Shown here piece after piece: positions 16,819 to 61,446 of a stretch of 64,000 bases of DNA (its first letter is position 1; each line of letters starts with the position of its first letter). Made by a program: the position numbers and the translations under genes. The stretch is from Argopecten irradians (lineage: Eukaryota > Mollusca > Bivalvia > Pectinida > Pectinidae), in NCBI RefSeq assembly GCF_041381155.1, contig NC_091144.1:12843544-12907543 (forward strand), written 5' to 3'. The notes under the pieces were generated by a model, which ran no database searches, was not told where the DNA came from, and was given only the letters and a program-made list of their open reading frames with translations.

Positions 16819-18318
16819 CTGTAATGTAAATAATACACTTCATTGTTTTTGTCTAAATTATCAAAGTCCGTATTAACCTTGTGAGTTTAAAAGAAAAAAT
16901 ATTACTTCATATACATACATCTGACACTTCAGTGTCAGTTACTGATCATAGGTCATTCTTTTTTCCAAAGATACTTCTCTGTTAAAAGGACGTGAAACAA
17001 AAGAAATCTCATGATTTACCGATTTGCATTTCTCGTAATATTGCAAATAATAAGAACCAAAAGTAAACTAAGTTGTTACCTTCTCACTGCTTTCATCTGA
17101 TGACGACTGTTCAGAAATCGCTTTGAACAAGTCGACAAACATTCGCAAGTCTGATACCAAGTCCTCGTCAGACGTAGGTACCGCATGTCTTCGTAAAAGA
17201 AAGGCATATTTCCAGAGATCGATCGCACGCCGGTAATGTTTGTAATCGGCGTACACAGCTCCACGGTAACGTATTCCATAAATTGTCTGTTCGTTGCGAG
17301 TGCCTAGGATTCTTTCACGCGTTAGCAGGGCATGCATGTAAATTGTGTCCTTGTCTGCACCTACCAAAGTTCTACACTGCTCAGGTGTTGCACATTCTCT
17401 GTGAAATTGGTAAGCCTGTTTTGTTTCGTTTGCAAGGATTTTTCTTAGTGGTGCCTCTGGATTAGCAAATCTTAACTCCATCGCCATTTCCCACAAATCT
17501 ATTCCTTCCGAAATATTGTTGTATTCGTCGATAATAGTTGCGCCCAGTAACTCATACCCATTCACAAGTCGAGAAATCTTCATCGCAGTATTGTCCCTGA
17601 TGTAATTGAATATCGTCCGATTTCCTTGAATTGCTGCGAGATAGAGGATGTGAACTTCTGAGGTAATTGTCACGAAATGAGATGCACCAGCAGTAAGAAA
17701 TAACTCCACCAGATCCAGCCGCCCCAACTCGATAGCATGATACATAGCGGAGTATCCACTGATGGTTGTAGCATTGACAGCTATGCCATGACTAATCAAA
17801 AACTGACACAACTCAAGTGAACCTTTGGTTGCATTGATAAGACATGTACCACCGTAAACATTCCGCTTGTGAATATCTGCACCATTTTCCACTAGATATT
17901 TCACAATGTCTAAATTACCGCAGTAACAAGCGCATCGTACTGCTGTCGAGTTGGTGGAAGTAGTGGAGTTCACATCAGCTCCATAGCTTACGAGGAGTTT
18001 CACAAGAGATAAATGTTCTTCACTGACGGCCACCCATAATGGAGTCACCCATTCTTTGAAGTTTTCCTTACATATTTGGTAAAATCCGCGAAGTTCAATG
18101 TCGGGATTACATTCCATCAACATGTACTTCACAATATCTTCTCGGTCTTTGTAACAAGCGAGAAAAAATGGTGCACAATCCCCTTGGACATGGTTTACAA
18201 TTTGTCTTCGCTCCTTATGGCCAGTGTTGTTCAAATATGTTTTTAATGCTTCAAAGTTGCTTGAATAGATAAACGATTTTATTTCTTTACTTGCAATGTC
18301 CAACTGCTTTCCTTCCAT
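16156..18318 (-). CDS. FEM1C: FEM1A/C-like ankyrin-repeat substrate receptor
   Basis: Two coding exons, 18318-17080 and 16818-16156, joined at phase 0 (EK|VQSSDIVD) across a 261-base intron; 633 residues against roughly 620-670 for vertebrate FEM1 proteins. Residues about 45-270 form ankyrin repeats (PLWVAVSEEHLSLVKLLVSY, LDIVKYLVENGADI). The FEM1-specific middle follows with YELLGATIIDEY, RERILGTRNEQT and IRYRGAVYADYKHYRRAIDL. Two more ankyrin repeats (QLLHLALMI, NTPLHHCI) precede a C-terminal VHL-box-like end, LKCMTARVIVD...LLEAFVELHR. FEM1 proteins are receptors of CUL2-RING ubiquitin ligases that read C-terminal degrons; that role is inferred. Sequence near the end is closer to FEM1A/C than FEM1B. 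The ankyrin part is divergent, so this may be a lineage-specific paralogue. Met at 18318 is the first clean in-frame start; an upstream exon could add about 20 residues. Confidence 0.88.
17080..18318 (-). CDS. FEM1C: FEM1-like exon: N-terminal ankyrin repeats and middle region
   Basis: 413 codons from Met (MEGKQLDIASKEI) to the donor GTAACA after EK. An acceptor CTTGCAG lies at 18363-18369, so the exon itself reaches 18362, and the 44 bases above the Met are either 5' UTR or additional coding sequence. Confidence 0.85.
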
Positions 18319-19224
18319 GTTGTTGACACCACTATTTTGGGCAGTACTGTGTAAAATGTCATCTGCAAGTAAGAAAAAACAATGAGTTAAAGAAAAATAG
18401 CATGCGTTCACCATAGATCGAAATAATGTTCACAGTCACCAAATAATACATTGACAATACACGAGAACGATTCGAAGAATACAATCATAACTAAAAAACA
18501 TAAATTTGATGATGAAATGTGGATAACTTCTGATGGCCGGCCACGCTTGGGTGTATATCATTCTGAGAACCGAGAAAATATAATGATACTTTTGTATGTC
18601 CTCATTTATAAACACTATTCCGTTGATGGTTTATCGTACGGTAGAGTATTTGACTTAAACCCGACTGTAACACTAGGCTTGCATGTGTAGTTTGCGTATC
18701 CCCATTCTGATATTATAAAGCGCGCACACAAACTGTCTTTTTAATCAGTGCAAACTATAAATTGCTCATTTTTAGGAATGTTAAATAGCAGATTCCGTCA
18801 GTATGATGTTGGTTACTTGAGTGTAAATGATAAAGACAGCTCAAGGTTTTACTACCTTATAAGCAAATGCCAACTCATTTATATGAAATGAGGGACGTAA
18901 GGTGCGATAACAGAGTTATCGTTCCTTCGAAACGAATGTTAACCATGACATCTTTTAGCTACATGTATCAACCAGGTTATAACCGCCATTTGGGTAATAA
19001 AGAAATTTACACAAAGTTTTTAACGATATTTTACAGTTAAGTAAATCCAGACGTGATCTATCGACTGAGATAGTGGCTGACTCTGCGAAAATTCATTTGA
19101 GGGAGAAATTTTTGGTCAAGCAGGCAAAAATCGACATTTTCACCGCTAGTTTCTGTTAAATTCGTCCATTTTACAATGCCAGTATTTAAATTAAATATCT
19201 GAATCAGTATTTATTGCAGGGTCA

Positions 19225-42989: not shown

Positions 42990-43375
42990 GTAGTGTCTAC
43001 ATCACGTCACTAGCGTTCGTTAAGTTTCCGTAAAAGTGACTTTATCAATGTTCCGTATTGTTGGATATCTATATGACGTCACTAGCGTTTACTGAGTTTC
43101 CGTAAAAGTGAATTTATCAATGTTCCGTATTGATGGATATCTATATGACGTCACTAGCGTTTGCTGAGTTTCCGTAAAAGTGACTTTATCAATGTTCCGT
43201 ATTGTTGGATATCTATATGACGTCACTAGCGTTTGCTGAGTTTCCGTAAAAGTGACTTTATCAATGTTCCGTATTGTTGGATATCTATATGACGTCACTA
43301 GCGTTTGCTGAGTTTCCGTAAAAGTGACTTTATCAATGTTCCGTATTGTTGGATATCTACACTAGGTCCTTGATG
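42990..43375. repeat. 72-base minisatellite with CRE palindromes
   Basis: About five units of GTTTCCGTAAAAGTGACTTT, ATCAATGTTCCGTATTGTTG, GATATCTATATGACGTCACT, AGCGTTTGCTGA. Four units hold a perfect TGACGTCA (43074, 43146, 43218, 43290). The top unit is coding sequence of the receptor's last exon, so the array extends from the end of the gene into its 3' UTR. Confidence 0.9.
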
Positions 43376-43464
43376 TTGCAGTGATACATTCTTGACATCC
43401 ATCACAAGTGTGGCTCGGCTTACAACCTGGTGACGTAAAAAGTTATTAGTTGACACTACACAGT
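43298..43464 (-). CDS. Receptor exon 19: kinase-like C-lobe end and stop
   Basis: Acceptor CATTTGTAG; 54 codons and TAG. PSVDIQQYGTLIKSLLRKLS resembles the DVWxFGxLLxE helix F segment, then stops, so the C-lobe is cut short. The last 59 bases are the first unit of the CRE minisatellite. Confidence 0.7.
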
Positions 43465-46400
43465 CTACAAATGGTAAACAGAAGGTGATTAACATATGAA
43501 ATACTTATTTTTGTAATAATAATTTAAAAAACCAACATTTGTAATAATATGATCCCTCCCACAGTTAGTGTCCACAGGGACCTGGCACGAAAATTTTTAA
43601 CCAATAGTATATACATATATATTATAGTATCAAGGATATAAACTCGGCGATCGAGAAAAACGAACCTATTTTTTTAAAACCGTGATTATTTTAATTAATG
43701 GGTTCTATACAACATTGACGGATATCTTACCTTAAAGAGAAATAATTCATCTTTTCATTGAGTGCTTGATGAACAAAATTGGCCAAGTATTGACGAAGTT
43801 ATGGCTTGATGAATCGGGAAATTTACGAAAGATATGCTACGTGTAGGTAGATATTTCCCTGTCCGGATATCCGTCAATGTTCTATACAACATTGACGGAT
43901 ATCTTACCTTAAAGAGAAATAAGTTATCTTTTCATTTTATATATCGTGACTACATTATGCAAATTATGTAGTGTTGTGTTTGTGCGAAAACTCGAGAAGC
44001 GTTCCGAAGAACAAATGAACATGGCGGTGACGGTTAAAATAAGTGAGCTACACGATGTTTAAATGGAGATTCTACAAAGTACGGGTCATGACACCTCCAA
44101 AGGAGATTGTGGATGAACACAGTTATGGGTACTGTTTACCACCACAAGCGTAGATTTTGTGATTTTGGCTTGGTTTTTGAGGTACCCATTAAAGCCGAGA
44201 CGACATTTCGACCAGACAGGGAAATGTCTACCTAGCATATCTTTCGTAAATTTCCCGATTCATCAAGCCATAACTTCGTCAATACTTGGCCAATTTTGTT
44301 CATCAAGCACTCAATGAAAAGATAAATTATTTCTCTTTAAGGTAAGATATCCGTCAATGTTGTATAGAACCCATTAATTAAAATAATCACGGTTTAAAAA
44401 AAAATAGGTTCGTTTTTCTCGACCGCCGAGTTCATACCCTTGATACTATAATATATATATATGTATACTGTTATTTTCAAAAATCGTGTCAGGTCCCTGT
44501 GTTAGTGTCCGATGTCGGAGCCGATATAGAGTTCATCAACAATAATGTATAATTCAAAGTTTGTGCAGTATCAGAACATTTCAATTAAACCAGGGGTTAC
44601 TATCACTGACGTCATATCTAACCATGGACTATCTCGTGCAAATGCAGTAAAACTAACGGCAACAGAAGACACATGCAATTTGAGTCTTTGATGTACATCA
44701 ATGGAACTGTATAACGTACACTATGGTTGACTGTGTTGCTGGAACGATGTTTTCCGAACTTTTTTTTTCTGATTTAAATTCTATTTATACCAAGATCTGG
44801 AAACATTAAGCTAATCGCACCTGAACCAATAAATACCTGTTTAGATGTTTTGATAAAGACACACTCCTTTGAGACGTTGCCGTGTATGATACCCCTTAGG
44901 TGGAGGAAGGACAGACCACGAATGATATGGTAAGCTATCTGAAACGTCTCGCCGGGAGATAGAAGGTGGTCACTGAGGTGGGACTCGAGGCAAATACCTC
45001 GCTTTCCTTCAAATAATTTGCTGAAATATATTTCCTTTAATATATTTGTCTGCTGCAAATCTGAAAAAAAGATACATAACATGGTTGATATTCTTAATAG
45101 ACAAATTGTTTATGAATAGTACTCATTGATTATGGGAGCTAACTCCTGTGATCCTATAAACATATAGTCTGTCTACGGATTGTTTATTTACATACTTTGG
45201 ATACTTCTAGAGATAACTGTATAATATTCTCCAAGGACTTATCAGAATTATTTTAGAGTTACGGAGAACTGTTTAAAGATATGTTAGAATTGCATAGAAA
45301 TCTATCCTGTTTAAACTTTATAAACGTTTTGTGTACTTCCGTATTCCTACGTAGATATGTGAACATTCCTGCTATTATCATTGTTTTGCCACCACTACCA
45401 AATTTTACTTTGGAGAGCTGTAGCTTGTAAAATTTTGTGCATTTATTAAATTGTGTTTTCAAATTAAGCTGTCGGTTGATAGGTTAGAATCAAACACATC
45501 ACATCAAGACAACACAACATAAAATAGCAGTTTGTTTAATTGATAACATGTTAGGTATAGAAATTCTGTCTTTGATTTGCTTCACCAGAATAATAGCCAG
45601 AGACGAGAGGAATAGCGATAACGATGAGTATATCATGAAAATAACGTTAGTAAATAAAAACAAAAGAACTACGTGGTGCTAATGTGCACGTGCTTACGCC
45701 ATGGAACAGATTCCAAGAAAATTATATAATATCAATTTATCTTGTCGGAAAAGTTCGATTACAATAGCTAATTATCTCCTCATTTTGATGATTAACGGCA
45801 TATATTGATTGACATGTATCTTTGAAAAGGTTGGGTTGAATCAATATCTATTTACCGTAGAATACTGGAACAGTGGTCTTGCTGGAGCTCAATAAGCTGC
45901 CACGATCAGAAGTATAACTTGTGGAACTGCGCATCGTCTGCAAATATAATTATAAACTATTTAATGGAAACAACTGGGTGTTTGGTCTGAAGCAGCTGAG
46001 AAATGATAATTCCAAAGCTTTTTATAAATATCCATTGGACAATATGATTTTAGTTCTACCAGTATTAATAATCAAAAGCTAAACCTTTGAGGCAAGTTTC
46101 TGAAATTTCACATAATTTAGACAAATTTTCGTGTTAAGATATTGTATCGAACAAATGACAAATGAGTCACCGATGTCCGTCTGATTCCATGCTGACGTTA
46201 CGTTATTTTCTTTATCATGACCCATATATAATAGTTGACGTTCTTGCATTTTATGACTAATTCATACGAATATGTAACACGAACGTTATGTTTAAAAATA
46301 CCAGATTTTAGCAAATAATAGAGCCGATACCCTTTTGACGATATCACTTAATGAAAAATACCGTAACAGTGGTTAATTAAGTTTGTAATAAAGGAGGGTC

Positions 46401-49400
46401 ATACTGAGAAACCTACTTATGGTGTTAATCAAAATTGGTAAGATTTGAAGAAAATTAAGTGAAGATAAAATTAAGAAAATTGATATTTAGTTGGTAGAAC
46501 GTTCATTTACATTGTTATAAACACAATGTGACGTTATCTGTCGGAACATATAAAATGATCAAGTAGTAACTAGACTAGATTCTTACACTAGTTGTGGTCC
46601 TCTTCCTCTTGATGTACGTATATGTATATAGGAAAGGATTGATGGCAGAATTGATGGGAAGGACTAGCACCATCACCCAGGCATACACATCTGGAGATAT
46701 AGAGCCTCCCGTCTGCGCCCACAATCCTAGAAATAGTATTTACGCTCAACTTTTAAATTGTTCACAGTTTGATAAGTGTTGCGATGTGTTTAATGTAAAT
46801 AAGAAAATGTAAAGATTTGCACTTGTTGTTGTGGTTTCCATGGCTATATTAACGGAGATTTAATAAAAACGAATAAAACAAAAGTCCACGAATATTTCCA
46901 CTTTAGTGTATGACACGCCAATGTTAAGGCAATGATGCAATTGGTTTGTGGCCAAGGTAGTGCGAACTTTCGCAATTTATTTGATCAAACTGTATGATTA
47001 TTTCCGTAAAATTATAATATCTGGTTTTATACGACGGTGTTAAGATGAAGGGATTAAGCATTCAGCACAGCAGTTTATCTTCTCCATGTTTTACGAACAA
47101 ATATTACGTTAAAGGTCCCTTCTTGCTCTTTGTTGAAATATTCGATATTTTATCAAAATCCAATTTCATTGTAGTAATCAATCTGATTGAAATACAGATC
47201 CTTATTTATAACCACTTGTAATTACATTCCATAAGTCTTATAAGGGTGACCTTTATACCACCTGGTCTTCAGATAAAAATCATTTTCTACACCTAGTTAC
47301 ATCACTTTGAAGCACTTTGATCGGCCAATTCAAAAGGTCACCCGAACGTGACCCTAATAGGATGTTGTCAGATTTTTTATCAAACGGAGTGAACGGAGTG
47401 ATGAAACATGGATATGTATTTTAAATAGTCTGCTGTAATAATCTTATATATAGAGTGAATGTGAAAACTAACCTATGACACCTATCGGAAACCAACAGCA
47501 GAAGTCTGTGGCCACGACCAGGAACAGGGATTTGGCGAGTTCCATTTCAATCCTCCGGTTCTGTGTGGCCGCTAAGCTGCCACTGCCTTTCATGGTTCTG
47601 TAGATATACACTTGTGCCATAACAATTAAAAGGAACACAAGACTATTCAGGCCGATAAAAATAGCCGCAGCATATTCGTCTCCTGGTGAACTCTCGCCTG
47701 TTAGGGGCAGCGCCAGACAGACACCGGACCTCGAATAAAACTCTCCTTTAAAGTATGCTTGGATGAATACCTGTGGTGTTATGGCTATTCCGATAGTCAA
47801 AAGCCAAACAATACTCACTACAACTCCAGCTCGTCTCCAGGTGAGTTTCCGCGTAGACAACGGAAAGACAATGGCGATAAACCTATCAATGGTTATTAGG
47901 AGGATGATAAAGGTAGACATCTCGCTGGAGATCATAGACAGGATACCCGCCGTGGCACACAGGGCGCTTTCCCTCCAAGATTTGTCGTAAGATACGTACC
48001 TCCCACTATAATGAGCGTCAACAGAGGCAATGATCAACATGTACACTCCCATCAGGAAATCGGACATACTCAAGTTTATCACGAATAAAGAATAACTCTT
48101 TTTCATGTGCTTTCTGTCAATAATTGTACGGTATATTATCACAAATGCATTCCCTAGCACAGCCGTTACTCCTATGAGCCAGAGACATATTCGAAGAATC
48201 CCGAGACCAACAAGGTTAGAACAAGATGATATGGATTCCTCCGGGGCGAAACAATTATCACTAGCTACAGAATCAGGCCGGATGCAACACATTTTATAGG
48301 AATCTGTGTATAGAAAGGCTAAATTGTCGAGACCATTGAAGAGAAACTCGTGTATTTCAAGCAAATTGTCGTGAATATCGAGAGTTTTCAAGTTTCCTAG
48401 ATTAGCGAATACATCGGTTTGAATGTCCTGGATGTAACTTGCACTAATGTTAAGATATGTCAAAGAAGTGAAGTCATTGAACGTTCCAGTGCGAATTTGC
48501 TGTAATTCTGTATGTGTCACCGTTAAACGATGTAGAGACTGCATTCCAACGAACGCCGTGATGTCTATAGTTGTAATTGGATTCTTACTGAGGTTCAATG
48601 TCAACAAGGAACGCAAATCCTTAAAAACTTCCGCCGGAACCTCCTCTATCAAGTTGGAGGAGAGGTCTAGATCCTTTAACTTCGTCAGGTGTTGTAGTAC
48701 TGACTGGCGTGGCATACTAGTTTGCAGATCCTTCAATGGTGTGTGTGCTATTTGAAGGTTGGATAACGAATTTAAACCACTGAAAAAATCTCTCTCGATC
48801 CTAAACAATGGGTTATGACTTAAAATTAGTACCTTCAGCCACATTTTCGGAAATATATTTTTGGACAGTGTTTCAATATTGTTGAAAGATAAGTCAAGAT
48901 GGCGAAGAGCAGACATGTTCTGGAAGAGTGATTGCCCACTAATGAGAAGCTCGCGGATAGAACAGTGCTTCAAAATAAGTGTTGTTACAAGCTGCAGACT
49001 GACAGGGACGTGAGGACGCAGGTCAGACATGTTGGTTGTCAGATTAATCCATCTTGCATCAGAATGGATCCGATTTAGAGGGATAATATTCGTATCACTA
49101 TCACATTGGAACGTCATCCCGCGACATTTACAGTTATCTGGACACGTAGGGTGACAGTTTAGTTCATCGTCTCCCCGACGACAGTGTCGAACACCGTCGC
49201 AGAGTTGGCTGAACGGGACACACTGCTGGGTCGAACGGCATTTGTAGTGTACATCACACGTGCCCCTGTCTGAAACAAAAAGAGAGAAATCTTTGTTACA
49301 AAACCTGATTTTGGCATTTCTGTAACCAATCTACTTTATATTATGTGACCGTGTTAACGTTTTAAGCGTTTTGATAAAGGGACATATACTGTCTTGTAAA

Positions 49401-52400
49401 TTCGACCATACGGTCAGGATTACTTCCTTGCCTCAGAGATAGAACTAGAGCTGATAAAGTATAACCGTGCGCACTTGACAACGTAATGTTCTATGTGATT
49501 CAAATATAACAAGTCAGAGTGGTATGCAATACCCATTTCTCATGCTGAGTCTTTCATATATTAGATGATCTGTAATCTGGTTTGGTTCGACATCCTTTTA
49601 ACAGCCAAGGACCTCCCGTGCATACAATGTGTTGCGGTATGTGAAAATCTGTATGTTTATTAGGAGGCCGCTGTATACTCATTTTATATATCTTTATGAT
49701 AGTGCCCTTTTATAGTGCTATATCACTGAAACATGCTGCAGACATCGAACAAGCACACCTCACCCGGTCACATGATACTGTACTGACAATTTTCTTATGA
49801 GAAATCTGGTAATGCAAGAGTGATGTTTGTAACATTATAAATGCAACAAACCGCATTCGAACTCGTCTTCCTGATTTGGACAATGACTTCTTCCATCACA
49901 TATGAATCTCTGGTGCAGGCAAAATGATCCAGGACACTTGGCATAGTTGACAGGACACTCGAACTCCTCTACAATAGTTCTAAAGTGCATCATTTCCTCA
50001 AAAATATGAAGAGGCAGAAGTACAAAATCGTAAAAATATATATAAAAAAATGTATAAAGAACAAATATTGGTTTGCTAGATACGATGAGACATGATAGAA
50101 GTATACAATATATATATGGCGAAGAAATATTTGTTTTCCTAAAGGTTTGGAAGAATGCTGCCCAAAGAACAGGTACCAGAGGAGACCCATTCGAACTTTA
50201 TCGTCATCGCTCTAGAACAATATTAAGGAAAAACTCGATTTTTTTTTTACATTTGAAGCAGTTTTCCTACACACGTACTGATAGACACATAACGCCTTTA
50301 AAGTTTACTTAGGCACATTCTAGACTTACACTATCATGACAACAGGCCAAAATTATTGTCTCTGGAAATGTCGCAAAGTAGCAGCCTTTAGATACTAGAG
50401 TCCAATGGAGAGGTGCCTGTGAGACCCTATTATAAATAACTATTTCAGGTATATAGTAATAAATGCCATATAATTTACCACAATCCTGAAGGTGAGTAAG
50501 ATCTCTACAAGCTGTCGGCTCCCCTGTCGGATCAAAGTCCATTAAACATCTATCTTTTTGGTAGTATACCATGCCGTTTTTACAGAATTTAGGATTACTA
50601 GCATACGCGGGATCAACATCTGTGGCAACTACAATAAAGAAAATATAAACATACCGTAAAACCTGTCTCAGTGACCACCTCTGCATAAAGTTAATCTATT
50701 TAACAGGTATAAAATTAAAATTCAACCTGTTTATATAAAGGCTAACCTAATGATAATTATCATAAAGACATTTTATTGTCTGCCTTGGATGATCTTTATA
50801 TATTTCATCTTTTATTGTCCCGCCTTTCTACGCCAGGGAGGTTACTGTCCTTACCTTCTGTACATATCAGCGGAGATACGGCAAGGATGATAGTCTTTTC
50901 AGACGTGACATCAGAAACAGGAAGTTCATCCTTTTTTGTAATGGCTACCCAGTTACTTCCGGCTGTGTTTGGTGTTGTCGGTATTTGTGTGTTTTGTACG
51001 GACGGGGTAAGCTTGCATCTGAAAATAAAGACGTTGTCCTTTATATACCATTTCAAACCTAACTTGAACCAACAGGGGCTGATATCACAGGAGGTATAAC
51101 GAAATAACATTCGGTTGTATTCTGGACCTTAAGTCGAATAATTAATGAAACATTTCATTGTCATTGGTGGACAGAACCGATGTAATGTTTATTATATAAT
51201 AGCCTTTCTGTTTATATTTGAATAACATTATTGTAAAAGCTTATACAGTATCAATGAGCAATTATTTTTATTTACGATCTGTATATAACAAGATTCGTTC
51301 GCCCAGTGCCGCGGTCTACGGGACTATTAGGTCGATTGCAATAACACCTAATCACTCATATTGTCAGAGTATAAACAAAGAAGCATTTTTCCCCAGGTAA
51401 TCGGCAAAAGTGACCGTTTATCTTCTAGTGTCTCGAATTATGCTCATAATAATGTTAGTTTTAATATTTGTTTTTCTAAAAAGTGTATGTTGTAATAATT
51501 AAACTTGTACCCAATGGAAAAACCAGGGAAATATACTTTGGTAGAAGTAAAGTTTAACATAGCTGTTGTAACTTACTCTGATGTTGTACAATATCCCGAA
51601 CAGCCTTCAACAGATACATTCAAAGCATTCGTGTTACCGTTCAGACCAGATATCCACTCCACCAAGACGCTATCCCTGGCTCTTCCCATGACGTTCACAC
51701 AGCCCCGGATGTACTGTACACAGGACGTTGCCTTGGTAACTAACTGGAGTTGTACTTCTGTGTTGGTGTAATCTATTTGAGTGACAACGAATGGGCGAAC
51801 GTCTATCCATACAGCTTCGGAGATAAGTGGACTTCCGGAATAGGTTGACAATGGTCTTTTTCCAAGTTCGTTTTCAAATGGCCAGGTCGTTTCCATACTG
51901 TTTGCCTTTAACGTGCAGTTCACATTGGTTGCCCCTTTAATACAGATAAATAAATACTACATAATTCAATATATACATATCGAAAACGGAATGCCAAATT
52001 ATATTTCATTAGTACGGATTCTTAAGCATTATGATATATTTTCGCACATTAATGGAATCCAAGTAGTAGATATTCATTTTCCGCTAGCAAATATCAATTT
52101 CTCCTAAAGCTTAGTCCTTTGGTAAACCTAAATGAAATAAACTTCCATTTAAAGATGCTACATCGCTGACAAATGGTATTTTTGGGACAGACGATTTAGA
52201 TCCAGTTGCAAAAGTTACTTAGTTTACACCATTACCACCATTAAAAATAATTAATTGCGTTCCGAAAAAGATCCATATGTCCTACATGGAATGAAGTAGT
52301 GGTTGCGCACGCACCAAAAACAAAGTTAATTTTTCCTATGTATTTTTGTTTTCATTAGAAACATACATACACGATTAAACATAAATAATTGTCCAAATTA

Positions 52401-55168
52401 TTAATATTATATATGCTCTGTCGGCGGTGGAGCATCTTTAACTAATGTTAAATGGACTGACTAATTAAGATTAATATCATACCGTACTGAACAAGTCCCA
52501 GACTGACGGCGACAGCAGTGATATTTGATGCATCATTATGTAACAAACTCCCACAGGAGTACACACGCGTAAGGCACTGCATTGTCTGGGTGGATTCATC
52601 ATTCCCGGAAACGCAATCCAATGTTCTGTCACAAAGTCGAGCCGACGGAAAAATCACGTCAGGGGTTGAACATTTATAGCTGTAAGCTGTCGGAATGTAG
52701 GGATTTTCTGGAAGAAAAATGCCAATTCCATCAAAAGTATAATTGCATATCTTTTTCATAAGTGGCAGTGAATGATAGATATACATTTTACAAAAGGGAT
52801 CAAAATGGAGTAAATTGGAAGGAATATCCATACCCTCGTATAAAATTAGTTTTTTTCATACCTACATTTTGATACATTTTGAAAAACAATCCAGAAAACT
52901 GGAAATAGCGCCACATTGACATAAGAATCGATTATCTAAAATTCTTCAATAAAACCAGATTTCTATTTTCTATTATCGTTCTATTGTCTTGAACGGTGTC
53001 AATTTTGTCGACGTAGTAACAAAGCGTCATCTTATTTCATCTTCATTTCATATTTTGACGAGGAGACAAGAAAAATGCAATCATACGTAATAGCGATATT
53101 CCAACCGTTTGTGTATGGCTGACAATAGAAGACAGAAAATAAACTAAAACTTAAAGCACAATATTCTGATATGAATTCAGATTTTGATGTCAAATATAGA
53201 TAACGATATCAAATGAATATACACTTGATTGTCATTTATAAAATTTAAGCGACGTCTGCGCTACTTTTGTTTTATTCGCTTAAATAAAAAGACTAATAAC
53301 CGGACTTTCATCATACTGTGCTTTAACCATCTGTTTTAAGATATCTTGGAAATTTCTTTTTCAAAATATATTGATTTGATCCAACGTAAATTTTGTATGA
53401 TTAACTTTCTGTCTTGGTATATCGCAAAGCTTTAGAAAGTCCTCACAATGTCCTGCCGAGCTAACAAATGAATATCACACTTTATGTTCTCATTATTTGT
53501 ATATATAGAACCTTTAGGCGAGTAACTTATCCAATTTTTCAACTTTTCTAACGCGGTAATGGAGCTATTTGTCTTATTACATGTAAATGAAAGCGAAATG
53601 AAATGGAAATGAAAGCGAATCATTTAGGTCTCTCTATAAGTTAAAATGGGTACTTAACATAATGGAAGCGTAAATGTTTGGATCATATTTATTTCTCATC
53701 AACTACAGGTATCATTCAGTAATAATGTTTAATATGCATTATTGTTGTCTAAAAGTAGGTTTCAGTTTTTTTTAAATAAGTCTAGTTGACCTCGACTGCA
53801 GTTTCATCACTTAATAAAACACGAACCCTCGCATGAAATGATTTAATATCTCAGCGATTGGAATACATGTACTTAGTATTGAAATATTGGCATATTTTCA
53901 AGCTACGCGTTTTTAAATCTCTGATATCTATTCTTTTATCTTTTCCCATACTTTATGTACCACTATTTGAAGTTAATGACCGCATACGCAAATACGGCAT
54001 CAATTCAGTGTTTGTCATTACCAAGCAGGGATATTATCATCGATAGAAAGTAAACATTGCGAAATTAGTTCACTGTTTACCTAAGAAATTTCATTACAAT
54101 AAAATTGATAATAAAAAACTAATTTTACTGCATCTTAATTTCATTATGTGCACAATAGTTTTAACAAAGGGACCGCGATGATCAAGTACATTCGATGTCC
54201 CAATATATTGCCACGTGCCTTATGGGTTACGAGTAGAAATCCTGTGTGGGACAGTTGCCTAGCACTGACCGCACATCCGTGTTGTTCTCAAGGTACTCCA
54301 TTTTTTCTTCACCAGCAGATATGGCACGCCCATAGATGAAAGGCTATTAATTGGACATTAAACTTATAAACCACGGTTGAAAGTTATCAAGAAGTTTTCT
54401 ATTTATAATGCGAATGAATATGAAGTATGTGTACGGACCTTTACATAGAATATCTGCCTCATCACTACCATCCGCACACTCTGTCTCCCCGTCACAAACA
54501 TCATATGACGCAATACATTGTAGGTTATTACACTGCCACTGGCTTCTTCCTTCACATGGAGGGTAGTCTGGTCAAACATAAACCTTTCTGTGTAATTGTG
54601 CCCATTTGTCAATATTCACAAACACATTTCATGTTTCTTTCGAATTCGTATGAGTTAAGAACTTTGTTAAAAAACCAAATCTGTCAATAAACGTGCCGTA
54701 GAAGTAATTAGCTATTAATTATTATTAAAATATTTGGTATTTATATCGACTTTTAAACATTCTAACGAGATCAGTTTTTTAAAATATTTTTCTTTGATTT
54801 ACTTCATGAAGCTTCTGCTAACGAAGCGCTTATAGCTAATACTATACAAGGACAATTGAAAAAATAAATTAAAAAAAAATATATTGTTTAAAACACAGAC
54901 CGTGTGATTCCACAAAGAGGAGATGCTATCTATTTACGAAGCTTCTGTACAAATGACCTATCTGGAAGAATTTTTAAAATTCCTTAGTTATTTATATTCA
55001 GAAATGTTTTGTGTTTCAATATAATATTCCAGTTTTAATCACATGAACCTTAATTCAAGGGAAATCTTAACCCGGATTCGCATCGACTTTTAATAGCCAG
55101 TACATAGATGGAACTTACGACGCTGTCTTTTCCAGAACGCTTTGTTCGTATCACTCACGTTACAATGT

Positions 55169-55203
<35 letters not shown>

Positions 55204-58200
55204 ATTTATATATATATATATGTATGTCCTGTCGTATTTGTAATGGGATATAGACATAATGATACATCGATATTAATAAGATATCTAGAAAATCATTTAC
55301 TGCAATTGTTCTCGTCCGACCCATCCGAACAATCCCAGTAGAAGTCGCACACAGTGGACGCCGACACACAGCCTCCACAGTTACACTGGAAACTCGTGCC
55401 GGAACACGCTTCTCCTGTGAAAAAACCATACCAAACACCATATTAAAACTTTGACAGGTAATATATTTACCTCTATCTCTATTTATCTCTAATTTCTCGT
55501 ATTATCCTTCAAAAAGTCAGCAATTGTATAGTAATTGTTCAATAATAGCATACTGAAGTTAGTCCTTTGTTAGATATACTGATAACCAGAAAAAAAGAAA
55601 GGGAAAAATGATTAAATAATAAAAATATTTAAAGGCAACATCTGTGTCAAAATGTGTCACAGCAAACTCGTTTTGTATGGCTTTAGGCATATGCAATTTA
55701 TAATTGGCTATGTTATCGGCCAACTTTATAAAATACACAGTTCATATCATCATCCTAAAGTTACATGTGCCGTAGTTTTCTTTACAAACGATCTAAGATA
55801 AGCTTTTAATATATAATTCATCACCAAATGTTACCAACATTGTGGGAATTACAGTACTTATAATGTATTGCTTTTGTAATTTAACAAGTACATATAAGAG
55901 CTGAAGATGTCATTTCACACTTCTACAGTGTTATTGGTAATCGTGAAGTAATTTCTACAGGAATATTTCCATTTGTACATACATAGGGCATAAGAAAACA
56001 ACAATTTTACAGTACTTAACTTTTGTGTTGTAAATAACGTTTATAAAGCATCTGAAGCCATTGGAATTATTTTAACGGCTTAATTAATCAACCTTTATGG
56101 TTTTCAATAGATTAATGAAGACCAAATAATATTTTCGCTTAGTTACGGCACATTTAACTTAAATTTAGTTAAGGATTGATCTTCATATACTTTTACTATT
56201 CCATTTAACCATTACGATATTGACAGAGACAATGACAACTGACCACAGTCCTCTTCGTCAGACTGGTCCCAACAATCACTGGCCGTATCGCACACAAACT
56301 CGCTAGATATGTACTCCCCGGACACCAAACATCGGAATAGGTCCTTGTCTCCTGTGTAACTGGTGCGGCCTGGGGCGATTCTTATGCCTGTTGTCAAAAA
56401 ATACTGAATTATCTGTTTTCAATACAGAAACATGAAAAGCAAAGATTTTGAATAGAAAAAAAGAAACAAACAACATTTAAAATGACAAAATGAGGTAAAC
56501 GCTATATCGTGGTATGTTAAGACAATCCTCAAGATACATTTTATTTCAAATTTCTCATATGTAAAGTGTCATTAAAGATATTCTATCTGTGGTAATTTGT
56601 TCAGACCGTATGTTTCTGTTACATCGGTAAAGTGTCATTTAAGATATTCTATCTGTGGTAATTTGTTCAGACCGTATGTTTCTGTTACATCGGTAAAGTG
56701 TCATTAAAGATATTCTATCTGCGTTAATTTGTTAAGACCGCATATTTCTGTTTCATCGGTAGAGTGTCATAAAAGATATTCTATCTGTGGTAATTTGTTA
56801 AAACAACATGTTTCTGCTACATCGGTAAAGTGTCATTAAAGATATTCTATCTGTGGTAATTTGTTACGACCATATTTTTCTTTTACATTTGTTAATATTA
56901 CATGACCTATACTCATTTTAAATGTTATGTTTTGTGTAGATTCTCGTGCGTTTGATACTTTGTCGCGTTAAATTACCACTATCCCTCCTGGGTAACGAGT
57001 TACGTAAGTGCTAAGTACTGAGCGATTATCCATAGTTTGTTTGTAGGAACTCCGACTTCCTACAGCTTATCGCATCTTTTGATGACACTTTGCGTTATTA
57101 GCACAAAAATAAACAATAAAACAATTTGATACATTGTAGCTACAACACACCTGTGATATGTTGCTGTTCCCGCCATTCACACGCCACCTCCTGTGTTCTA
57201 ACCCATTGCCATACCCGCCCTACGTCCATATGGAATTTTATTCCGAGAACCATAGGGACATCCTCCTCCAAACACCTTTTGCACTCTGAAGCTGATAGTC
57301 GACCACCAAACCTCAAAACAGAATCAAAGACTGAATATGATAAATGTATTGTTTTAATTTTGTTATTTGTGTTCAATGTGTTTAGATTTAAGTGTTTCCT
57401 GTATGCCGAAATAGCTTGCAAAATAAAGGTAGAAATTCGAATTACGAAAAAGCCATATCAATGTATGTATGCAGCATCAAACGAGGATTATTTCACTGTT
57501 GATATAGGGCCGTGCATGTATGAAAAGCCTTTTGAGGATTTTAAAAAAAGAAATAAAATAGAAGGAAAAAAATAAAAAAAAAAATACTTCAAAGTTGATG
57601 ATGACCTTTCACAGAATAGTAATTATTTGCTTGGTAATCCACTCACATTTACTAAAACTGCCTGAATAAAAATAACAGTGACTTATATGGAACAATTATC
57701 AGTGTTGTTTGGGCCACTGAACACAATTATACTGCTCATTATCACTAGATTGATACCATTGTGCAAACGTCAAGGATGAACCATCCACCCAAGCGAGGTC
57801 TTTCCACAGCATGGTATTTGCAGATAAGGTCAAACCTGTTAAATAAAACCGAGGATGATATCATGTAATGATATAAAAATCTGTCAATCTCTATTTTCAT
57901 CAAAAGAGACTCATTTTGCTGAGTCATCCTCAAGTTTTATTAATGTAATTTGATCAAATCATTTAAAAATATTATTCATAATTTTGTTTTATTCGTATCT
58001 AAAGTGTTGTTATGACATTTCGAAGAGAAAAGTTCGAGTTGCTGCTATATTTTCGGTTGAATTAATATTTAGTTCATTTGTTCGCAGAGAGAGGGAACAA
58101 ACTAATTCTGAACACACACTGTTAGTCTGGTACACTGTGTACACAATGGAAGTAATGGAGAGAACGGTCATCACTTCAATAAGTACAGATAAGGATTATC

Positions 58201-61200
58201 GGTGTATCATGCTTTTACCCACAATATGTCTGTTAGCTTCCCAAATGCATACAAGCCCTTACCTAGTTTTATTTCGAGTTCCGTGGCTTTGTGAACATGA
58301 AAAGCTATATCGTATATCCACTTATCTTTCTGGGACGTGTGGATAACGGCCAATGATCCATTTTTGTTGGCACACTCGTCCTCGTGCAGAAACTCGATAC
58401 AGCCAAACCTGATGATTGTACATTACATTTGTAAAAATTAAACTCGATAAAGCCAAACCTGATGGTTGTCCATTACATTTGTGAAATCAAACTCGATACA
58501 GCCAAACCTGATAATTGTAAATTACATTTGTAAAAATTAAACTCGATACAGCCTAACCTGATGGTTGTCCATTACATTTGTAAAAATAAAATCGATACTG
58601 TCAAACATGATGGAAGTAGATTACATTTGTAAAAATAAAATCGATGCAGTCAAACATGATGGATGTAGATTACATTTGTAAAAATAAAATCGATACCGTC
58701 AAACATGATGAAGTTAGATGACGTTTTTAAATACCAAACTCGAAACAGTCAAACCTGATGATTGTACTCAGTCAAACATGATCTAAATAAAGTCAAACAT
58801 GATGAATGTTCATTACATTTGTAAGAATAAAACTCGATACAGGCAAACCAGATGATTGTACATTGCATTTGTAAAACTAAACTGTATACAGTCACCTGAC
58901 GAATGTACATTTGATTCGTAAAATTAAAATCGATACAGGCAACCTATTTAAAAAAAATGTGTTATAAAACCAGGATACAGGCAAACTTCATAGTGCCATG
59001 TTAATACATTATTAACTCAATTTCATTGCATATCAAATTGATGGCTTAACATAAACCAAAAATCGTACAGAATTACGGACCAGAAATGTTAGTTAATCCG
59101 AGAGGAGGCAATTACTAAAGGAGAAACCTAACATCATTTATGCAATGATATTTTTAGTAATATCTGATAACTTCCTCGTTATACCATTACTGTCCTCTGT
59201 GTAACTAGATGATATATTAGTCATCTTTTTATATATAAATGAGAAAATTGAGACAGTTTTATTCTACATCATTCATGAATCATGCAATTAGACCTATTGA
59301 GACATAAGGTGATGTTTCAGTGACGAATTCAAATGTCAACTTTAATACGACTACTAATAAACCAATATAATTTAATGCTTAGTAATGACATTTACGTGAT
59401 CATCTGGACTTTATTCTTATATCCACTCATTACATAAAGATTTTTCGCCGTCGACGGAGCTTAAAATTCATTAATCATTTGGACAATAATTGGTGTTTAC
59501 TTGTGTGGACGTATGTCTGATTAACACGAAAAAATAACATAAAATGAATTGTTTTATGTTTGGTGCATTCGCAATAGGTACTTCATTCCATCTCAAAGTA
59601 TTATAAAAAAAACTCAAACTTTTGTTTCTGGAGACAAATACATCTGCTCTTGTTTGTGATAGAGACAATATAAAATGACAAAAATTAATGAGACATACAT
59701 ACTTTTCTGACTGAACCCCATTGTCTCCGCAGGTATCTGTAACATATATTTGAAGAAAAAGATGTTAGACTAATCCAATGATATCAAAATACGTATCAGG
59801 TTTGTTTTGAAATTATTTCAACTTATTTTTATTTTTATTTTTGACAAATCAATTTTGATTCCTTTAACTTATGACTTATTTGTATAACTGAAAGACTGAT
59901 TTCAAACATTTGAACACATCATGCAGCAAAACATGCATCTGTTGTTAACAACACCACCAACAGCGGGTTACCTTGAAATACATAGGCTGCGTAATGAGAT
60001 ATTGAGGCAATATGATTGCTTTTAAGAACACAAATCAGTATCAATTATGAGTTTCGTCAACCAAGATGTGCTCATTAAGAAAACGGACAGTCGAGGAATG
60101 CATCACAATTTTAACCTAACATTGAATAAGCAATTATCGGACCATTACCTGTGTGGTTTTCAATGCGGATATATATAATACGGCTAGTGATTTCAGTGTA
60201 ACTCGATTGTACAAGTGGCCATGAACGCAGATAACAAAATTAAAATAAAATTTTAATTTTCATCAGACTTTGCATAAAACTACAGCCATTGTAATTAACA
60301 TTCGATCAATGGCTGAATGTTCGGTTTTCATTTTTTTGTTATGCAAAGTGTCATAATCTTATGTAATTTAAAAAAAAAGTTTTATACATTAGCTTATTTC
60401 GTGTTGAATTGCAAGCTATGGGCGATCTAATTCTTCAGTTGTGTGTCATGTTACCATGTCGAGATCTAAAATGGAAATATCTTCTAAATCGCTATCACAA
60501 ACATTATAACTTTAGCATACCGATTTATCTTTCATTGCTGTAGGTGGTTTTTGTTAATAATTATACGCAACAACAATACCTACGCGAGCAGATAACTCAA
60601 AAATAAAAAGAACATATACTGCACTTTTAAAGGGACAATTACTCAGGCTAATTCTTTTACATAACCAAGAAGCAAAATTGGCATAAATGTATTGTTCTAC
60701 ATTTTATGGTGGTAAGATATTGACAAATTCCAAGATAATGTGTGTTTCATTTGTACGCAACAATCAATATATAAATATAAACTTCATTTATTTTACATCG
60801 ACTGCGAAACAAGTTATACAACTTATGTAAATCACTCACGATGGCCCGGATGTAAGCGCGCGAGGGGTCTTAGTGTGGGAGGAAACCGGAGTGCCCGGAG
60901 AAAACCCACGTGATCGGGCAGGTGACCCCTGACCTTTTCACGTCCGTGCCGGGGATCGAACCCTGGCCGGCTAGGTGAAAGGCGAGTGGTTTAACCACTA
61001 CACCACCCGATCACCCAATAATAACAATAATAACAACAATCAATATCTACGCGGAAGGGCAGATAACTCATGTAAAATAAAAAGAACAAATACTGTACTT
61101 GTTAAATAATACTTACCGTACTTGAAGTCGACAAAAGTGGTAATGTTGATTGTTTTGTTGACATCTACACAACTATACCAGCCCCGATCCCCCGGCAGAG

Positions 61201-61446
61201 TAGATGTGATCTCGAGAACACTGGTCAAGAGACCATCGGTGATTGTCTCCGACACTGTGTATCTGTCTCTGAACCGATTGTAGAAAGCCAAAGTTAGGCT
61301 CAAATCGTAGGCATATTCCCAGACAAAATAGGTTCTGGCGTGGCGAAAATACCAGGTGACATTTGCACCCTGTGGCGCTCGGCAAATCAAAGTTATATTT
61401 TGGAACTCTTTAAAGGTTTTAGTACTTGTTTCTAGAATATAAGACA
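43298..61446 (-). CDS. GRL101-like receptor: Ig, C-type lectin, LDLa, LRR, 7TM, kinase-like tail
   Basis: Nineteen exons from 61446 down to 43298 keep one open frame through every junction: 1,595 codons and stop, with the 5' end missing. Order: Ig-like domain; C-type lectin domain (WVDGSSLTFAQW); two canonical LDLa modules with CSDGSDE or CADGSDE, a slightly altered one (CWDQSDEE), then a weaker one; an unassigned cysteine-containing region; a degenerate and two further LDLa modules; about ten LRRs; a relaxin-receptor-like hinge; a rhodopsin-type 7TM with TIDRF and NPFLY; a Ser/Thr-rich linker; a kinase-like domain. LDLa-LRR-7TM is the plan of Lymnaea GRL101 and relaxin receptors, so this is a plasma-membrane, probably G-protein-coupled receptor. 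Ligand unknown. The kinase-like end lacks HRD, and canonical DFG is not visible. A split into two genes between the lectin and LDLa parts is possible but phases argue against it. Confidence 0.78.
43565..44509. mobile_element. 929-base DNA element with 290-base inverted repeats and 8-base duplication
   Basis: Element 43573-44501 begins CACAGGGACCTG and ends CAGGTCCCTGTG; TTAGTGTC flanks both sides (43565-43572, 44502-44509). Arms of about 290 bases share TCATCAAGCCATAACTTCGT and TATCCGTCAATGT. The 8-base duplication fits the hAT superfamily. The centre has ATGGCGGTGACGG but no transposase. It lies in the receptor's last intron. Confidence 0.8.
44591..44637 (+). repeat. Dispersed 55-base hairpin motif, copy 4
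   Basis: CCAGGGGTTACTATCACTGA, CGTCATATCTAACCATGGAC, TATCTCG. Confidence 0.65.
44821..45060 (-). CDS. Receptor exon 18: kinase-like helix E to catalytic-loop region
   Basis: Acceptor TTTTTCAG; 79 codons. FQIAYHIIRGLSFLHLRGII then HGNVSKECVFI align with helix E and the HRDLKxxN loop of protein kinases, but D, K and N are replaced. Donor CAG|GTGCGA at 44820 is preferred because it alone gives a plausible phase 1 join that keeps VFIGS; an earlier GTATTT does not fit. Confidence 0.75.
45856..45937 (-). CDS. Receptor exon 17: Ser/Thr-rich cytoplasmic linker
   Basis: Acceptor ATTTGCAG, donor GTAAAT; 27 codons, TMRSSTSYTSDRGSLLSSSK, potential phosphorylation or arrestin-binding segment. Confidence 0.78.
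46587..46726 (-). CDS. Receptor exon 16: TM7
   Basis: Acceptor ATTTCTAG, donor GTAAGA; DVYAWVMVLVLPINSAINPF, with NPFLY for NPxxY, then a basic IKRKR start of the cytoplasmic tail. Confidence 0.88.
47473..49269 (-). CDS. Receptor exon 15: LDLa, LRRs, hinge, TM1-TM6
   Basis: 598 codons without an intron. LDLa YKCRSTQQCVPFSQLCDGVR (about 49240-49170), LRR N-cap CPDNCKCRG, about ten LRRs from 48997 to 48308 (LRHLDLSFNNIETL, LKDLDLSSNLIEEVPAEVF), hinge with KMCCI and SISSC, then TM1 ILRICLWLIGVTAVLGNAF, TM2 with NLSMSDFLMG, TM3 ending LLITIDRFIAIVFPL, TM4, TM5 and TM6 (KSLFLVVATDFCCWFPIG). DRF replaces DRY. Donor GTTAGT. Confidence 0.93.
49852..49966 (-). CDS. Receptor exon 14: LDLa module
   Basis: FEC-PVNYAKCPGSFCLHQRFI, CDGRSHCPNQEDEFEC. 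Donor GTTTGT. Two acceptors two bases apart (TTGTAG and TTGTAGAG) each keep frame if exon 13 ends at A or AGT; the second pairs with the stronger donor. Confidence 0.8.
50330..50628 (-). CDS. Receptor exon 13: degenerate LDLa-like region
   Basis: Acceptor ATTGTAG, donor GTAAGT; 99 codons. CKNGMVYYQKDRCLMDFD and CRDLTHLQDC resemble the first half of an LDLa module but the SDE cluster is missing; CCHDS closes it. Confidence 0.72.
50855..51018 (-). CDS. Receptor exon 12: unassigned extracellular region
   Basis: Acceptor TTTTCAG, donor GTAAGG; 54 codons, C-KLTPSVQNTQIPTTPNT, SNWVAITKKDELP, ending PLICTE. Probably one fold with exon 11. Confidence 0.72.
51577..51934 (-). CDS. Receptor exon 11: unassigned extracellular region
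   Basis: Acceptor TATTAAAG, donor GTAAGT; 118 whole codons. Five cysteines, sequons NVN-C-T and NVS, YSGSPLISEAVWIDVRPFVV. No domain recognised; length and strand-like pattern suggest a beta-sandwich. Confidence 0.72.
52149..52441. mobile_element. TTAA-flanked MITE, copy 3
   Basis: 293 bases in the receptor intron between exons 10 and 11. Ends AGATGCTACATCGCTGACAA and GTCGGCGGTGGAGCATCT between TTAA tetramers; shares TACACCATTACCACCATT and TGGAATGAAGTAGTGGTTGC with the other two copies. Confidence 0.8.
52483..52707 (-). CDS. Receptor exon 10: weak LDLa module and linker
   Basis: Acceptor TCTTCCAG, donor GTATGA; 74 codons. YKCSTPDVIFPSARLCDRTL, DCVSGNDES is LDLa-like; it continues with CGSLLHNDASNITAVAVSLG of unknown fold. 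Confidence 0.78.
54176..54385 (+). mobile_element. tRNA-derived SINE, strongly decayed
   Basis: GGGTTACGAGTAGAAATCC, TTCTCAAGGTACTCC, CAGATATGGCACGCCC and TTAATTGGACATTAAAC keep the order of the SINE at 32535. In a receptor intron. Confidence 0.5.
54439..54567 (-). CDS. Receptor exon 9: LDLa module
   Basis: Acceptor TTGACCAG, donor GTCCGT; 42 codons. WQCNNLQCIASYDVCDGETE, CADGSDE, a canonical module. Confidence 0.85.
55168..55222. repeat. TA microsatellite
   Basis: Long TA runs with TTTA interruptions in a receptor intron. Confidence 0.85.
55301..55414 (-). CDS. Receptor exon 8: LDLa module
   Basis: Acceptor TTTCACAG, donor GTAAAT; 37 codons. FQCNCGGCVSASTVCDFYWD, CSDGSDENNC, a canonical module. 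Confidence 0.85.
55780..56120 (+). repeat. Dispersed repeat, copy 2
   Basis: Same ordered blocks as 41637-42085 in the same orientation, with several indels. Confidence 0.65.
56244..56387 (-). CDS. Receptor exon 7: LDLa module
   Basis: Acceptor GACAACAG, donor GTCAGT; 47 codons. FRCLVSGEYISSEFVCDTAS, DCWDQSDEEDC: the acidic cluster of the Ca2+ site is present. Confidence 0.82.
56560..56885. repeat. 65-base tandem repeat, five copies
   Basis: Unit: GTAAAGTGTCATTAAAGATA, TTCTATCTGTGGTAATTTGT, CAGACCGTATGTTTCTGTTA, CATCG. In the intron between receptor exons 6 and 7. Confidence 0.9.
57151..57330 (-). CDS. Receptor exon 6: end of lectin domain and linker
   Basis: Acceptor ATATTCAG, donor GTGTGT; 59 codons in the only open frame. 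GGRLSASECKRCLEE fits the C-terminal cysteines of a C-type lectin fold; VWQWVRTQEVACEWREQQH follows as linker. Confidence 0.68.
57647..57661 (-). CDS. Receptor exon 5: putative 15-base microexon
   Basis: Acceptor TTTATTCAG and strong donor GTGAGT around 15 bases. Using it gives YNCSFSKFDSV, restoring the expected lectin cysteine. The preceding intron would be only 63 bases, so the exon is uncertain. Confidence 0.35.
57725..57835 (-). CDS. Receptor exon 4: core of C-type lectin domain
   Basis: Acceptor TTTAACAG. Encodes LWKDLAWVDGSSLTFAQWYQ, the W-x-D-G-S signature. The donor (GTGTTC at 57724) is weak and was chosen by phase. Classical Ca2+-binding EPN/QPD and WND triplets are not evident. Confidence 0.68.
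58263..58408 (-). CDS. Receptor exon 3: N-terminal half of C-type lectin domain
   Basis: Acceptor CATCAG, donor GTAAGG; 48 codons with FGCIEFLHEDECANKNGSLA, VIHTSQKDKWIYDIA, matching the C...A...L-A-x-I start of the fold. Its acceptor and first 19 coding bases are copied in the minisatellite upstream. Confidence 0.78.
58389..58930. repeat. 49-base minisatellite copied from a splice acceptor junction
   Basis: About 12 copies of AAACTCGATACAGCCAAACC, TGATGATTGTACATTACATT, TGTAAAAAT. The first copy is the junction itself: its right part is the acceptor and its left part is the first coding bases of receptor exon 3. Copies decay with distance. Confidence 0.88.
58931..60837. other. Receptor intron sequence, nothing else recognised
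   Basis: Apart from the 34-base exon, AT-rich sequence without recognisable repeats or RNA genes. Confidence 0.5.
59703..59736 (-). CDS. Receptor exon 2: 34-base small exon
   Basis: Acceptor TGTTACAG, donor GTATGT. Encodes TCGDNGVQSE and completes phase 1 to phase 2, the only combination that joins the Ig exon to the lectin exon in frame. Confidence 0.62.
60838..61018 (-). mobile_element. tRNA-derived SINE of a second family
   Basis: On the - strand: GGTGGTGTAGTGGTTAAACC (A box), CCAGGGTTCGATCCCCGGCA (B box), then GGGTTTTCTCCGGGCACTCC and GGTTTCCTCCCACACTAAGA, a body shared by many metazoan SINEs. Better preserved than the first family, so probably younger. Confidence 0.8.
61117..61446 (-). 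CDS. Receptor exon 1 seen: Ig-like domain
   Basis: Acceptor CTTTTACAG, donor GTAAGT; 109 codons. Ig pattern: NITLICRAPQGANVTWYF (B-strand Cys and C-strand Trp) and GDRGWYSCVDV (F-strand YxC). NVT and NIT sequons mark it as extracellular. Preceded by no clear signal peptide, so at least one exon is missing upstream. Confidence 0.78.

Follow-up and report, generated by a model that had tools for sequence, protein, structure and literature searches.

A window of 64,000 nucleotides from Argopecten irradians (contig NC_091144.1) carries on its minus strand, from position 61446 to 43298, a gene whose sequence encodes an immunoglobulin (Ig) domain, a C-type lectin-like domain (CTLD), low-density lipoprotein receptor class A (LDLa) repeats, leucine-rich repeats (LRRs), a seven-transmembrane (7TM) region and a kinase-like tail. 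We read it, with a probability of roughly 0.6, as the gene of a leucine-rich repeat-containing G-protein-coupled receptor (LGR) of the GRL101 type (type C2), with Ig, a degenerate CTLD, LDLa repeats and LRRs outside the cell and, inside it, a non-catalytic pseudokinase tail of about 117 residues that would serve for docking. The pseudokinase half on bilaterian class A G-protein-coupled receptors (GPCRs) is the new part; the receptor is otherwise of a known class.

Kinase-like sequence and predicted structure of the tail

The tail comprises 117 residues after the seventh transmembrane helix (TM7) and a linker, and resembles part of the C-terminal lobe (C-lobe) of protein kinases. A profile of 22 tails matched 1,255 distinct sequences of the Protein Data Bank (PDB) at E ≤ 1, led by VRK3 at 5.1e-10, and the best 60 of these 1,255 matches were all kinases or kinase fusions. 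A second profile, of nine tails that overlap the 22 but include no member of the P0001 or P0021 groups (P0001 is the predicted protein of this gene), matched 818 sequences, the best at 1.6e-7 (PAK-2), and here too the best 60 were all kinases or kinase fusions. The third profile, of exon 17, was derived from the DNA of nine loci of this genome and gave 33 PDB matches at E ≤ 0.001, every one a kinase; the best five were 7t6f ('Tyrosine-protein kinase', which we take to be JAK1), TYK2, KSR1 twice and VRK3. A control profile made from 10 of the 45 long tails that do not match the tail family returned two weak non-kinase matches. The matched kinase core spans about 45–85 positions of the 22-tail and 9-tail profiles, and 15 of the 22 tails match PK_Tyr_Ser-Thr individually at E ≤ 0.1. 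Plasmid sequences searched with the tail gave no match, as expected.

VRK3, JAK/TYK2 and KSR were the best matches for two of the three tail profiles. VRK3, the JH2 domains of JAK/TYK2 and KSR are pseudokinases with full two-lobed domains; VRK3 and TYK2 share with the tail an HGN-type loop and helix E, whereas the tail, unlike all of these pseudokinases, has no N-terminal lobe (N-lobe) and little or nothing of the activation segment. The catalytic-loop position of the tail reads IHGNVSKEC, with HGN in place of HRD, and the HMMER alignment sets this HGN on the HGN of VRK3 and on the HGN and HRN of TYK2. There is no space for an N-lobe with its glycine loop and beta 3 lysine, as the tail begins a short linker after TM7 both here and in the tails of relatives. 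An earlier note on this DNA, made from the letters alone, had called the tail kinase-like; homology to the kinase C-lobe stands, but only a truncated part is present, without N-lobe and HRD aspartate. At the level of sequence, the tail is demonstrably homologous to kinases and has lost the catalytic residues. Because the N-lobe and the HRD aspartate are missing, catalysis by the tail is excluded for practical purposes. Scanned as a whole protein, P0001 matches Pkinase at E 0.017 and 15.0 bits, below the Pfam cut-off of 31.7; if our reading is true, general surveys would miss this architecture because single-protein kinase scores mostly fall under such curated cut-offs.

An AlphaFold2 model of the relative P0003 (31 alignment rows; mean predicted local distance difference test score (pLDDT) 77.8; predicted template-modelling score (pTM) 0.49) arranges its tail as a low-confidence helix, a short helix, a long helix, the HG loop, two strands and a last helix, with block pLDDT values of 57–89 from residue 961 and a mean of about 80 for blocks 961–1063. 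The order in a kinase C-lobe is helices D and E, catalytic loop, beta 7, beta 8 and helix F. We read the modelled elements as these same parts with the activation segment omitted, and sequence and model together suggest that the tail runs from helix D to helix F of a C-lobe, the N-lobe being absent and the activation segment largely or wholly missing.

Spread, age and proposed role of the tail

Tails were collected as the stretch after the last NPxxY-like motif in 120 of 249 hits, of which 79 had at least 60 residues. An iterated profile seeded with ten scallop tails (E ≤ 0.01 within the 79-tail set) matched 33 of the 79 in its first round and 34 afterwards. These 34 rows represent bivalves and abalones as well as one hemichordate, one crinoid and one sea urchin (Argopecten, Pecten, Mizuhopecten, Ylistrum, Mercenaria, Ruditapes, Tegillarca, Solemya, Haliotis, Ptychodera, Antedon and Lytechinus). 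The weakest of them is that of Lytechinus, which apparently joined only in the second round, and P0030, P0038 and P0039 are cut or aberrant at their ends. None of the 34 has space for an N-lobe, and no catalytic HRD occurs in those aligned. Most tails have a short stretch from beta 8 to helix F, but that of Tegillarca P0081 has about 20 residues more. As far as sequence goes, these comparisons establish that the tail is conserved in several lineages.

In this genome of 846 Mb, the tail occurs at nine loci: this gene on C11, four loci on C8, two on C13 and one each on C16 and C2. At each of them the tail is made of two open exons with the break at a similar position, and a TM7 exon lies within the flank examined at three of the seven P0021-type loci. 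The tail query also matches an exon on contig C9 that resembles a true kinase (HKDLKSKN..DFG) and one on contig C3 that resembles another HGN pseudokinase; both seem unrelated to receptors and were set aside as receptor tails. The query further picks up additional copies of the tail's final 20 residues, because the unit of a 72-bp tandem array copies the end of exon 18.

Against Pecten maximus, the tail of this gene is 69% identical, as are the LRRs, with 65% for the linker, 63% for the Ig domain and 85% for the 7TM region; against Mizuhopecten the values are 66% (tail), 62% (LRRs) and 57% (linker). The paralogues P0005 and P0006 retain 42% and 41% identity in the tail and 20% and 22% in the linker.

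The ligand of the modular ectodomain would be a protein or a peptide, whose signal the LRRs and LDLa repeats would relay to the 7TM region as in relaxin receptors, and the 7TM region would activate G proteins. The half-pseudokinase would not phosphorylate; it could form a folded docking or regulatory surface beside the G-protein site, to which a kinase, a regulator of G proteins or a partner receptor would bind. Both deuterostome and mollusc rows bear the tail, and because of this an ancestral tail with losses appears the simplest reading; the tail was probably present in the common bilaterian ancestor of these receptors and was then lost repeatedly. That a class A LGR and a truncated pseudokinase were fused in a bilaterian ancestor, and that molluscs, hemichordates and echinoderms have retained the product as a module for signalling or scaffolding, is a proposal for which we see the odds as even.

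The tail might instead be the vestige of an ancestral GPCR–kinase fusion that now serves as an ordinary C-terminal tail, in trafficking or arrestin binding, with no folded docking role. Decay of this kind would agree with the lack of an N-lobe in all 34 tails and of a catalytic HRD in those aligned, with the strong divergence of veneroid tails and with the many relatives that have no tail, from whose number it follows that the tail is dispensable in some lineages. However, many distant rows, though not all of them, retain an LH pair, the HG-type loop and a D(I/M)xxxG stretch, the copies at nine loci are open, and the tail of P0003 is modelled mostly with confidence; we regard a mere vestige as unlikely.

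Several results count against the reading of this gene as a receptor with a pseudokinase docking tail. The P0002 tail alone, in a search of the protein database that requires shared exact words, retrieved only the scallop orthologues P0001–P0003 and no kinase among 59 candidates. Only P0021 of the 16 whole proteins scanned clears a kinase cut-off (25.0 bits versus 23.1), and Pfam lists no kinase family at E ≤ 0.1 for the tail-bearing P0037, P0043 and P0047. The first tail helix of the P0003 model has low confidence, and the best 50 matches of a structural comparison of the whole model (VIA-align), which barely probes the tail, were LRR and 7TM chains only. All relatives are computed gene models, and the gene itself was read from genomic sequence. 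Finally, a single origin of the tail is not established, because a 7TM tree of 119 rows (quick method, midpoint root; only hits of this search, with no vertebrate relaxin receptor) requires nine changes of the tail, compared with about 30 in shuffles.

Low or absent individual Pfam scores, a matched core of so few profile positions and the failure of the tail alone to retrieve a kinase from a large protein database would also be expected if the tail were not kinase-derived at all and merely a helical cytoplasmic tail that resembles helix E and the catalytic loop by chance. Nevertheless, three tail profiles, one of them from the DNA of this genome alone, retrieve kinases while the control does not, 15 of 22 tails match a kinase family singly, and the modelled order of secondary structure appears to fit; a chance resemblance is scarcely credible.

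Gene model and extracellular modules

The joined model has 18 exons, all with GT–AG introns; its 4,523 bases hold 1,507 full codons, the stop among them. If the split first codon is completed to Val, the product is identical to residues 21–1527 of the predicted 'GRL101-like [Argopecten irradians]' protein P0001; residue 357 of P0001 is a codon interrupted by an intron. Exons 1, 6–9 and 12–14 have phase 1 at both start and end, which is typical of shuffled extracellular modules. The features are as follows, with window positions.

61117..61446, minus strand: exon 1, Ig domain with C..W..DxGxYxC pattern, starting with two split-codon bases after a CAG acceptor (Ig_3, PDB profile)
59703..59736, minus strand: exon 2, CTLD start (DTCGDNGVQSEK) (joined model, P0001 match)
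58263..58408, minus strand: exon 3, first half of CTLD (joined model, alignment)
57757..57835, minus strand: exon 4, CTLD, WVDGSSLTFAQW stretch (Lectin_C E 0.0093 on the surrounding frame, below cut-off; alignment with relatives)
57151..57311, minus strand: exon 5, last part of CTLD, without the QPD and WHD of relatives (joined model, alignment)
56244..56387, minus strand: exon 6, LDLa repeat 1 (Pfam, joined model)
55301..55414, minus strand: exon 7, LDLa repeat 2 (Pfam, joined model)
54439..54567, minus strand: exon 8, LDLa repeat 3 (Pfam, joined model)
52483..52707, minus strand: exon 9, degenerate LDLa-like piece, then start of Cys-rich module (Ldl_recept_a E 0.15, weak)
51577..51934, minus strand: exon 10, Cys-rich module, possibly fibrinogen-like by a weak, non-significant match (joined model)
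50855..51018, minus strand: exon 11, Cys-rich module continued (joined model)
50479..50628, minus strand: exon 12, module end, D[LV][TS]HLxxC stretch common to relatives (joined model, alignment)
49852..49968, minus strand: exon 13, LDLa repeat (Pfam, joined model)
47473..49269, minus strand: exon 14, last LDLa, LRRs, Cys-rich hinge, TM1–TM6 (open frame: LRR_8 1.7e-41, 7tm_1 1.3e-28, Ldl_recept_a 1.1e-4)
46587..46726, minus strand: exon 15, TM7 with NPFLY (Pfam, joined model)
45856..45937, minus strand: exon 16, Ser/Thr-rich cytoplasmic linker (joined model)
44837..45060, minus strand: exon 17, first part of truncated pseudokinase C-lobe, read as helices D and E, catalytic loop IHGNVSKEC and beta 7 (Pkinase E 1.8e-4 on the exon frame, below cut-off; PDB profiles; P0003 model)
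43298..43426, minus strand: exon 18, last part of C-lobe, read as beta 8 and helix F with DIQQYG; stop TAG (joined model, P0003 model)
42996..43359, minus strand: tandem array, 72-bp unit, 5.1 copies, the unit copying the end of exon 18 (sequence comparison)

The joined model bears out the extent that the earlier note had given, a single continuous minus-strand frame from two bases of a split codon at 61446 to a stop at 43298–43300, and profiles, alignments and the identity to P0001 confirm its domain order from Ig to kinase-like tail. Its count of 19 exons, 4,790 bases and 1,596 codons between identical ends does not hold: it exceeds the joined model by 267 bases (89 codons), so that the ends agree and the interior differs. 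Two candidates were rejected because they are not in P0001, P0002 or P0003, namely an extra exon at 45407–45270, which reads like a glycine-rich loop and hence an N-lobe, and a longer version of exon 12. The surplus in the earlier count might be of the same kind.

The 18-exon model is incomplete, its 5' end falling outside the 64-kb window. The start Met of P0001 lies 61 bases upstream of exon 1, in an apparent intron, whereas P0002 of Pecten maximus opens with a signal-like sequence and has a stretch rich in Thr and Ser, joined at the Val-Ser-Tyr that exon 1 shares. Beyond the window, from window-equivalent position 66601 downward, there is a frame with a signal-like hydrophobic start and Thr/Pro-rich PMDPPPTGTTT tandem repeats, which may be the missing first exon, although a donor of matching phase is not established. 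Because the P0002 start joins at the same Val-Ser-Tyr and a comparable frame exists at 66601, we infer that the split first codon of the earlier note is probably right and the start of P0001 wrong.

P0002, a single predicted protein, contains Ig, the first part of a CTLD, LDLa, LRR, 7TM and tail, its front end being 68% identical over 69% of the query. The search for this domain order in bivalve proteins that the earlier note had proposed thus succeeded, and because a predicted Pecten maximus protein shares the order, a chance join is unlikely. Gene prediction might still have fused a neighbouring secreted or membrane Ig-CTLD gene with a GRL101-like receptor: the gene and its relatives rest on prediction, the CTLD exons are small, the P0002 model is without the last CTLD exon, and the front end (Ig-CTLD), used as a query at E ≤ 0.001, matched no proteins other than P0001 and P0002, for which reason a close version of the pair is seen here in two scallop genera. 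Yet the identical order is predicted in both genera and the exon phases join throughout. Moreover, the predicted paralogues P0011, P0012 and P0025 have Ig-like and CTLD-like modules ahead of LDLa (Pfam lists no Ig for P0011, P0012 or P0017 at E ≤ 1, and a V-set at E 0.058 for P0025), P0006 also holds CTLD-like pieces there, P0025 has its own signal-like start, and a CTLD precedes LDLa in abalone P0037, Solemya P0038 and hemichordate P0053. Two fused genes are thus very improbable, and we continue to treat the exons as one receptor gene.

Of the domain families that the earlier note had proposed for checking, 7tm_1 (E 4.5e-32), LRR_8 (3.6e-31) and Ldl_recept_a (five stretches, 1.4e-28) are clear in P0001, but Ig_3 and Pkinase score below the cut-offs curated for them, and the matches of the whole protein at E ≤ 0.1 do not include Lectin_C. 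Ig_3 scores E 0.0019 and 19.1 bits against a cut-off of 30. A profile of five scallop Ig modules nonetheless retrieves Ig-superfamily chains from the PDB (best E 7.5e-10, Contactin-2), and the hallmarks are present, with the B-strand Cys, the C-strand Trp and the F-strand DxGxYxC, of which C, W, D, G, Y and C are invariant across five relatives.

The CTLD (exons 2–5) aligns with relatives that hold a clear Lectin_C match, and its profile reaches E 2.9e-30 against the PDB, a score helped by two clear rows, P0042 and P0038. QPD/EPN and WND-type motifs form the calcium sugar site of C-type lectins. Relatives keep QPD (QPN in the hemichordate) and WHD, whereas both are gone at the corresponding positions of this gene, and its CTLD is, on this alignment, degenerate. 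With these stretches missing, canonical calcium-dependent sugar binding was rejected, and the suggestion of the earlier note that the receptor could bind glycans is therefore unsupported. Exons 9–12 form a Cys-rich module common to relatives; no Pfam family matched it, and its profile found only two ANGPTL4 chains in the PDB, at a non-significant best E of 0.44.

Relation to known receptors and kinase fusions

The relaxin receptors RXFP1/2 are type C1 LGRs; RXFP1 bears a single LDLa and is not known to carry a CTLD, an Ig domain or a kinase-like tail. GRL101 is a type C2 LGR (PMC11863921, PMC4079206), and this gene has the several LDLa repeats, LRR ectodomain and class A 7TM region of that type. 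GRL101 of Lymnaea stagnalis and other type C2 LGRs share with it LDLa repeats, LRRs, hinge and class A 7TM, and many search hits are named GRL101; this gene adds Ig and CTLD in front and the half-pseudokinase behind. In two pulmonate hits, 14 residues follow NPxxY in P0066 (from Lymnaea, and labelled partial) and 26 in P0074 (from Biomphalaria).

GRL101s with a CTLD have been published in Biomphalaria (PMC12297450). The SudRes2 GRL101-like receptors of Biomphalaria sudanica described there unite, like this gene, a C-type lectin-like domain with LDL, LRR and GPCR parts in a single protein, and CTLD-bearing GRL101-like receptors sit in a schistosome-resistance region of snails; the passages on these receptors mention no Ig or kinase-like tail, and 'kinase' is absent from the main text. 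The CTLD of this gene, in contrast, is degenerate. Fusions termed GPCR-TK and GPCR-TKL/K, described from choanoflagellates, sponges, oomycetes and amoebozoans (PMC12716839), likewise place a kinase-family domain in the C-terminus after the 7TM region; here, the 7TM region is that of a class A LGR (it matches 7tm_1) and the kinase part is truncated and non-catalytic.

Among the matches listed in the open-licence PMC literature, the available passages do not describe a kinase-like tail for GRL101 or LGR receptors, and a survey of LGRs left the cytoplasmic tail out of account as poorly conserved (PMC4079206). For bilaterians we found no published description of Ig, CTLD, a relaxin-receptor-like body and a kinase-like tail together. 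The earlier note's description of the receptor as unusual needs narrowing accordingly: LDLa-LRR-7TM and CTLD-bearing GRL101 proteins are known (PMC12297450), but for the kinase-like tail no report was found in the literature covered.

If our reading is true, the gene represents a new signalling architecture, a stand-alone half C-lobe on GPCRs, which adds a cytoplasmic feature to GRL101-like receptors and shows how little of a kinase evolution can retain. None of the GPCR-kinase fusions of protists and sponges has been functionally characterised, to the knowledge of the authors who described them (PMC12716839). A conserved pseudokinase half on bilaterian class A receptors would offer a tractable system, with scallop or abalone receptors in cell culture, for the role of a kinase module on a GPCR.

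Other features of the window include two more tandem arrays within the introns of the gene. One, at 58390–58942 (about 49/99 bp), lies in the intron before exon 3 and extends into the first bases of that exon, and its unit resembles the acceptor and start of exon 3; the other, at 56561–56888, has five copies of 66 bp and lies in the intron that separates the CTLD exons from LDLa repeat 1. Minus-strand frames at 3421–4281 and 7605–8048 resemble, by eye, remnants of retrotransposon reverse transcriptases (no Pfam match at E ≤ 0.01). An ankyrin-repeat gene occupies 17068–18429 and 16156–16839 of the minus strand, its first piece matching Ank_2 at E 9.9e-27.

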